A stretch of 64,000 bases of DNA from Cryobacterium sp. Y29. GTDB taxonomy: Bacteria > Actinomycetota > Actinomycetes > Actinomycetales > Microbacteriaceae. The DNA is taken from contig NZ_PJJN01000028.1 of assembly GCF_002929825.1 (NCBI RefSeq), forward strand, positions 62,001-126,000. The letters run 5' to 3'. The notes below the pieces were generated by a model. It was not told where the DNA came from, did not search any database, and worked only from the letters and a program-made list of their open reading frames with translations. The translations under genes were made by a program, and so were the position numbers. Below, one piece after another: positions 43,346 to 44,687 of this stretch; the first letter of the stretch is position 1, and the number at the start of each line of letters is the position of its first letter.

Positions 43346-43448
43346 GCATCTAAGCAGTATTTGGCGATACCCACAAGACCCCGAACGGGCTGTCGCAATC
43401 CGACCGGTTTGTGGATAACTTCACAGGACAAGATTGTGGAGTGTGGCC

Positions 43449-44687
43449 ATGCCCGAACGTGGATACGCGGTTATAAGTTTGAAAACTACCGGACTGTTCC
43501 CGTACCAACGGGATCGGGTCGTCGAGGTCGCTGTGGTGCACCTCGACGTGGGTGGTCGCATTGCTGCGCGCTGGCAAACCGTCGTGAACCCGGGAAGCAA
43601 CGCCGGGGACGTGGCGAACCACGGCGTCAGCACCGCCGAACTCTTGCGCGCGCCGACGTTCGAGCAGATTGCACCGCGCCTGGTCGACCTGCTGCGTGGC
43701 CGGGTATTGGTGACGCACAACGCCCAGTTCGTCACCGGATTTCTCATGCGCGAGTTCGAGCTGATGGGTTATGCGCCCGGCCGCGGACTCGAGGCCGTCT
43801 GCACCATGCACCTGGCCCGCACCTATTTGCCTGGCGCTGGTCGACTGCTGGTCGATTGCTGCGCCGCCTATGACATTGAAATCGAGCCCGGACCGGGGGC
43901 ACTGGTTCAGGCCGTGGCCTGCGCGAGTCTTCTCGCCGCCTACGTGCAGGGTTCGCCCCGCGTCGCGCCGTGGGTCGACGCTCTCGACCGTGCCGAGCAA
44001 TCCGCCTGGCCGAGAATCACCGCTGCCACCGACGCAGAGTGGGTGCAGCGCGACCCGTCAACGCCGGGCGACGAGGCACCGGCACCGAGTTTCCTGGCCC
44101 GGGCGGCTGTAAAACTCCCCGACTACACCGGTCCCGAAGAACATCTCGACTACCTCGCCCTGCTCGATTTGTGCCTGCTCGATCATGTTCTCTCGCCGCA
44201 GGAAACACGTGAACTTCGGGTTTTGGCCGAATTCAGCGGTGTGACGGCCGCCGAGGGCATCGCACTGCATCGCCGTTATTTTGAGGACCTCGTGCAGGTT
44301 GCCTGGTTGAACGGCGCTCTCAGCGTCGCGGATTCTGCCGACCTGATCGCGGTCGCCCGCATGCTCGATGTCGCTCCAAAAATCGTTGCCGCCGCACTGG
44401 CGGCGCCCGCCTCGGTGGTGCAGTTGCCGCTCGCCTCGATCGACACTGTGCTGCTGGAACAGGGCGACATCGTCGTGCTGACCGGTGATATGGCCCGGGC
44501 CCGTTCCGACTGGGGCCGGGAACTGGTCGCTCGGGGTCTGTCCCTGGGCACGGCGGTCACCCTGCGCACGCGCCTGCTCGTTGCGGCCAACCCCGCGTCG
44601 ATCACCGGAAAAACCGGGAAGGCCCGCGACTACGGCATTCCGATCGTCTCCGAATTCGGCCTGCGGTCTCTCATCGGAGTGCGCTGA
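43449..44687 (+). CDS. Degenerate DnaQ-like (DEDDh) exonuclease-fold protein with BRCT-like domain
   Basis: The 412-residue product has the layout of actinobacterial DEDDh exonuclease/BRCT proteins: exonuclease fold (about 1-165), helical linker with a TerB-like region (about 225-320), and a C-terminal BRCT-like domain (about 335-410, GDIVVLTGDMARARSDW and KARDYGIPIVSE). All catalytic positions are changed. The motif normally DxETTG reads ISLKTTGLFP, HNARFD reads HNAQFVTGFL, and the last motif has Pro and Gln where His and Asp are expected. So it is probably a catalytically dead, structural or regulatory DNA-binding protein. GGAG lies 7 bases before the ATG. Confidence 0.82.
   Translation: MPERGYAVISLKTTGLFPYQRDRVVEVAVVHLDVGGRIAARWQTVVNPGSNAGDVANHGVSTAELLRAPTFEQIAPRLVDLLRGRVLVTHNAQFVTGFLMREFELMGYAPGRGLEAVCTMHLARTYLPGAGRLLVDCCAAYDIEIEPGPGALVQAVACASLLAAYVQGSPRVAPWVDALDRAEQSAWPRITAATDAEWVQRDPSTPGDEAPAPSFLARAAVKLPDYTGPEEHLDYLALLDLCLLDHVLSPQETRELRVLAEFSGVTAAEGIALHRRYFEDLVQVAWLNGALSVADSADLIAVARMLDVAPKIVAAALAAPASVVQLPLASIDTVLLEQGDIVVLTGDMARARSDWGRELVARGLSLGTAVTLRTRLLVAANPASITGKTGKARDYGIPIVSEFGLRSLIGVR

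Follow-up and report, generated by a model that had tools for sequence, protein, structure and literature searches.

A gene of Cryobacterium sp. Y29 (43449..44687 on the forward strand of the window, the whole stretch of 64,000 nucleotides that was analyzed) appears, from its residues and its pattern of substitution, to code for a stand-alone bacterial pseudo-exonuclease that bears evidence of selection. Its 412 aa product is a DEDDh-fold/TerB-like/BRCT protein predicted to be catalytically dead. The dead protein is kept by purifying selection, and it is the live paralogue, not the dead gene, that is decaying in Cryobacterium. The protein is probably a former DEDDh exonuclease which, having given up its metal ligands and general base, was retained for binding nucleic-acid ends and not for cutting them.

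Domain architecture and the lost catalytic site

The reading frame is open from an ATG to a TGA. An in-frame TTG lies 15 bases 5' of the ATG; the ATG is backed as the start by the ribosome-binding-like GTGGAG that precedes it (43436..43441, +), a candidate site kept in all 18 of the close orthologues. The first 167 residues (43449..43949, +) form the exonuclease-fold domain. Pfam RNase_T matches residues 13-145 with 47.7 bits (cut-off 24), placing the protein in the exonuclease fold, and an alignment profile matches the E. coli epsilon structures 2gui and 1j53 over epsilon residues 8-169 (E 2.6e-17). The best NCBIfam model, PRK06063 'DEDDh family exonuclease', gives 133.7 bits, far under its cut-off of 389. 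Next come a variable linker (residues 168-212; 43950..44084, +), which differs in length among the orthologues, and a TerB-like helical domain (residues 213-325; 44085..44423, +). For the latter, Pfam TerB reaches 23.3 bits in the relative L053, slightly under the cut-off of 24.4, but does not match the window protein itself, and the TerB structure 2ou3 gave only a weak Foldseek match; none of the Foldseek matches reached E 0.001. The C-terminal residues 336-412 (44454..44684, +) are a BRCT domain of the LigA/RFC1 type. Pfam BRCT scores 22.0 bits in the orthologue L104, above the cut-off of 21.3, the window protein's own C-terminus matches the LigA BRCT with E 0.00026, and the BRCTs of LigA and RFC1 are its recognizable relatives. 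The exonuclease/TerB-like/BRCT layout proposed in the sequence-only reading is thus borne out by the RNase_T and LigA-type BRCT matches, less firmly so for the TerB-like part. Two AlphaFold models were poor (mean pLDDT 59.8 and 57.3); as both were too weak for pocket geometry, structure-based inference about the pocket was dropped.

Homology to the live exonuclease-TerB-BRCT paralogues and to the sister sequences described below extends over nearly the entire length and all three domains at 46-58% identity, and by this measure the window protein would be a member by descent of the Microbacteriaceae exonuclease-TerB-BRCT family. The live actinobacterial proteins of this kind (PRK06063-like) have the same domain order and length, but they keep DEDHD or DEEHD together with the acidic positions of TerB, whereas in the window protein both sets are incomplete.

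The catalytic positions were read from an alignment with E. coli epsilon (2gui, 1j53) and 69 distinct catalytically intact homologues, 56 of them DEDHD, 12 DEEHD and one cut at the N-terminus. All five DEDDh positions are replaced in the window protein (D10S, E12K, D95V, H149P and D154Q). The former DxE motif is now Ser10-Leu-Lys12 (43476..43484, +), followed by the retained TTG; the former second Asp, of HNAxFD, is Val95 (43731..43733, +); the former catalytic His is Pro149 (43893..43895, +); and the former last Asp is Gln154 (43908..43910, +). These are exactly the replacements that had been claimed from the sequence, with DxE as Ser-x-Lys, the second Asp as Val and the last His and Asp as Pro and Gln. 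Neither the DxE metal ligands, nor the D or E of HNAxFD, nor the HxxxxD that would supply the general base and last metal ligand is present in the window protein, and on these defining residues it would not be an active DEDDh 3'-5' exonuclease.

The same loss is found throughout a group of 18 orthologues that includes the window gene, and so is more than chance or sequencing error. The group reads [S/C]-K-V-P-Q, with exceptions at single positions in L047 (K12N) and L016 (P149S). Among the exonuclease-domain columns that are at least 95% conserved in the live sequences (n=41), the live residue is gone from all 18 at six, namely 10, 12, 148, 149, 154 and 158, which are four catalytic columns and two neighbors (148 and 158; hypergeometric p 1.5e-4). 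Column 95 falls outside the 41 because it is D or E in the live sequences. The exonuclease domain has a net charge of -7.9 in the live copies of Cryobacterium and of -2.9 in the 18; with the five catalytic sites excluded it is -3.9 in the live copies versus -3.8 in the 18. As the rise is confined to these five sites, it amounts wholly to the loss of the acidic pocket.

Conceivably, the pocket was rebuilt around Ser/Cys10, Lys12 and Gln154 for a different catalytic activity. The near fixation of K12 (17/18), V95 (18/18) and Q154 (18/18) would suit such new chemistry, but position 10 is split between S in nine sequences and C in nine, the sister group has other residues at every position, and the newly fixed acidic or His residues are unclustered, being three single gains at 3, 104 and 115. 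We therefore regard a new catalytic activity as very improbable.

An orthologous locus in Cryobacterium

The dead gene was found in 22 copies in 21 of 57 Cryobacterium genomes, and all 22 frames are intact. In a tree of 48 sequences, the 22 dead copies form one clade (support 99/96), within which the group of 18 is monophyletic (100/100) and has a sister group of four (99/96); two broken live copies, L058 and L020, were excluded from the trees and tables. The dead-gene locus is orthologous. The locus was examined in 21 relatives, and in 20 of these an RNase HI gene lies 3' of the dead gene, with further neighbors common to most; the sole relative locus without RNase HI next to it, L046, comes from a short contig that shares little flanking sequence.

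The four earlier-branching sister sequences read EQDRH, EQEQQ, DEAHK and HEGAQ in place of DEDHD. The last Asp is the only position lost in all 22, so the other catalytic positions went by separate routes. In two sister-group genes, L102:8569-9801 (G016) and L101:8417-9598 (G015), the stretch around H58 is varied or missing. The G015 protein (DEAHK) has a deletion near H58, yet retains active-site D, E and H, and may on these residues have residual nuclease activity. Cryobacterium sp. Y50 (G074) carries two dead copies, L047:6001-7302 and L046:3369-4607, one of them with K12N and a linker extended by ALVGT repeats.

The region 5' of the gene holds a candidate -10 region, GATAACTTC (43414..43422, +), which by eye is exact 5' of 16 of the 22 orthologues and from which we infer a promoter. 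Co-transcription in an operon with the upstream sugar transporter was rejected, as the transporter gene is not directly upstream in 3 of 17 relatives from the group of 18 (L042, L045 and L051); given this, the dead gene probably has its own promoter. The group of 18 mostly conserves a CCCCGAACGGG-like stretch 5' of its genes (about 43375-43400 of the window), and the sister group has a related version; the stretch is a possible regulatory site. A perfect DnaA-box-like TGTGGATAA lies at 43410-43418, 31 bases 5' of the start codon (0.06 expected in the window); a link to replication was dropped, as the box is shared by just 3 of 18 orthologues.

Beyond Cryobacterium, the analysis sampled 299 Microbacteriaceae genomes out of a larger set and scored at most six first-look candidates in each; at least 64 of the 299 have a match. 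Fifty loci were read from this draw: 47 are DEDHD or DEEHD, one is truncated at the N-terminus, and two (L169 and L170) have lost residues. A third degenerate copy, L171, was found on a further look. All three (in G210, G131 and G200, respectively, from two other Microbacteriaceae genera) are shorter, BRCT-less and partly degenerate, and in a quick tree they fall outside the dead clade. Since they are separate from that clade, catalytic residues have been lost in spare copies elsewhere too, there without the full layout. G210 and G131 also carry a live full-length copy.

Selection on the dead gene and decay of the live paralogue

Codon models were fitted with our own script (F3x4, GY94 type). 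With synonymous changes saturated on the older branches, omega in the group of 18 was 0.124 for the whole gene, 0.081 for the exonuclease domain, 0.28 for the linker, 0.18 for TerB and 0.031 for BRCT. An omega of 1 was rejected for the whole gene and for every domain of the 18 (2dL 93 to 1688), and two starting points gave the same exonuclease and BRCT fits. The corresponding values for a live group of nine were 0.066, 0.047, 0.26, 0.072 and 0.019. As the separately fitted omegas of the 18 are the higher, constraint is somewhat weaker on the dead gene than on its live counterpart, most of all in TerB. Consistent with this, the acidic TerB positions 245, 252 and 288 are relaxed in the 18, and mean pairwise identity within the group is 90% for the exonuclease domain and 93% for BRCT, with 76% for TerB and 61% for the linker.

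The joint tree for a two-ratio test took in 23 of the 44 Cryobacterium sequences, dead and live together. On it, omega for the exonuclease domain was 0.077 in the dead gene versus 0.062 in the live one, which is not significant (2dL 1.6). There was no detectable difference for BRCT (live 0.046 versus dead 0.029, 2dL 3.2) and a weak one for TerB (live 0.089 versus dead 0.131, 2dL 4.6). A separate omega for the stem branches (0.158 in the exonuclease domain) was likewise not significant on the joint tree. The sequence-only reading had argued for selection on a non-nuclease function; the intact frames of all 22 copies and an omega that stays far below 1 throughout the domains tested agree with it, and the relaxed selection of a decaying gene, which it had named as grounds for its own rejection, is not what omega indicates.

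Slow decay, with the gene a pseudogene still open by chance, could draw on the missing catalysis, on the relaxed TerB domain and linker and on the G074 copy that carries K12N and linker repeats. Against these stand the 22 intact frames, omega well below 1 in all domains and the conserved ribosome-binding site, and real decay is visible for contrast in the fragments of the live paralogue, making it most improbable that the dead gene is decaying.

The intact live paralogues of Cryobacterium (n=22) are all DEDHD, and the full-length one most similar in kind to the dead protein is 46-48% identical to it. Among the matches listed for the 57 Cryobacterium genomes, the live paralogue is intact in 22 and present only as broken traces in 12, and 19 have neither the dead nor the live gene; given these 19, the function is dispensable in Cryobacterium. 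Among the matches listed for the 21 dead-gene genomes, the live copy is intact in nine, broken in eight and without trace in four, and the dead copy is the sole intact one in 12. A broken dead gene was found in 0 of 21 genomes versus an only-broken live gene in 12 of 34 (among the matches listed); since the genomes are related, the Fisher p for this contrast (0.0017) should not be read as a true probability. Some of the broken live calls are thin: G009 and G025 each show one stop, G021 has a split frame and G001 a single fragment, short and weak. Assembly errors or misassignment could account for these calls. The live-gene fragments in G000, G028, G013, G074 and G035 have neighbors in common with intact live loci. 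L058 (G009) and G036:C14:36806-36955 are broken second live traces next to a more complete copy, and this arrangement suggests that a tandem duplication took place long ago.

The genome of the window (37 contigs) has the live gene as fragments with stops on contig C19, and the other exonuclease-fold genes there are an oligoribonuclease and two DnaQ-like genes. These findings bear on the proposal, also made from the sequence, that the dead protein competes with an active paralogue. A dominant-negative competitor of an active DEDDh paralogue would find an intact target, about 46-48% identical to itself, in the nine dead-gene genomes with a live copy among the matches listed, and the other DnaQ-fold proteins could be its target in the window's genome. 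However, most dead-gene genomes are without an intact live copy (12 of 21 among the matches listed, eight broken and four without trace, with the window's genome among the broken), so competition does not stand as a general role. Nor does constraint detectably follow the live copy, as exonuclease omega on tip branches is 0.075 in genomes with it and 0.095 in those without (three classes versus one, 2dL about 1.4). Taken together, a competitor is an improbable explanation for the dead gene.

Possible roles at nucleic-acid ends

The residues that persist may point to binding. In the exonuclease domain, T13, T14, G15, H58, H90, N91, A92 and F94 are each kept in 18 of 18 sequences, in accord with the retained TTG and HNA noted from the sequence along with the intact frame. 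We take T15, H66, H98 and F102 of epsilon, the equivalents of the pocket Thr and of H58, H90 and F94, to contact the nucleotide. The kept pocket residues may, however, only hold the fold. In the BRCT domain, T345 is kept in 17 of 18 and G346, R352 and K391 in all 18. From alignments with LigA and RFC1, T345, G346, R352 and K391 would be the equivalents of Rfc1 Thr166, Gly167, Arg174 and Lys209, which form the DNA phosphate site of the Rfc1 BRCT (PMC9359705). BRCT-mediated binding is thus plausible from the residues kept. The LigA and RFC1 BRCTs, relatives in sequence of residues 336-412 whose TG/Arg/Lys phosphate-site residues the window protein shares, sit in a ligase and a clamp loader, whereas the window BRCT is joined to a dead exonuclease.

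With residues of the nucleotide pocket and the BRCT phosphate site kept and the metal ligands gone, the protein would keep hold of ends, shield them or serve as a scaffold in repair. Under this scenario, the BRCT would dock on a 5'-phosphate, be it at a nick, at a gap or at a recessed end, and the dead exonuclease pocket would cradle either the 3' end or a short stretch of single strand, leaving it uncleaved. The bound protein could then shield the ends from nucleases, or mark them or hand them to a partner such as a ligase or polymerase; scaffolding of repair would be a further role. The loss of catalysis in several ways within one clade fits a role that was already mainly about binding.

The main rival to end binding is a protein-interaction scaffold, in which the dead fold docks a replicase, clamp, ligase or helicase and its own nucleic-acid binding is irrelevant. 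The exonuclease fold is constrained as a whole (omega 0.081), as a scaffold would lead one to expect. Mycobacterial DnaQ, or Rv3711 'epsilon', presumably a member of PRK06063, has a DEDDh-type exonuclease domain as the window protein does. The live Rv3711 of M. tuberculosis is reported to bind the beta clamp and to stimulate the polymerase; its active site is present and it degrades single-stranded DNA with Mg (PMC4731781, PMC12926913), whereas the window protein is without the site. Bacterial PolA2/APEX and PolB2 keep a vestigial, inactivated DnaQ-like exonuclease domain in their lineage, and that of PolA2/APEX bears a clamp-binding motif (PMC12926913). Those exonucleases are polymerase domains, whereas the window protein stands alone and, read by eye, is without the QxxLF clamp motif. 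In addition, surface docking alone would not require the pocket residues H58, H90 and F94 to be kept in 18 of 18. A scaffold is accordingly a real possibility, though a good deal less likely than end binding.

End binding by a dead exonuclease fold has a likeness among animals. Exuperantia and PML-1 PXL have the exonuclease fold and have lost the DEDD residues, as has the window protein; PML-PXL, which like Exu is without DEDD residues, binds single-stranded nucleic acid but is inactive as a nuclease (PMC12934764). The animal proteins have an EXO/SAM arrangement with no TerB or BRCT, and no close sequence kinship to the window protein is claimed. In open-licence PMC text, no paper was found on the Cryobacterium protein or on any dead DEDDh-TerB-BRCT protein. 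To our knowledge, few pseudo-exonucleases have evidence of function: the animal proteins Exu and PML-PXL, and dead domains that form part of polymerases.

For annotation, the 'DEDDh exonuclease' and 'RNase_T' models match a gene product that, judging by its residues, is not expected to cut. More speculatively, and rather doubtfully at present, this actinobacterial lineage may have swapped an exonuclease that trims DNA ends for its own dead duplicate, which caps the ends or hands them over, with loss of catalysis repeatedly favored and the live enzyme left expendable and decaying. One orthologous locus offers a graded series of partly to fully dead sister proteins, and the live paralogue allows direct comparison, partly in the same genomes, so that the transition from nuclease to binding protein becomes testable.
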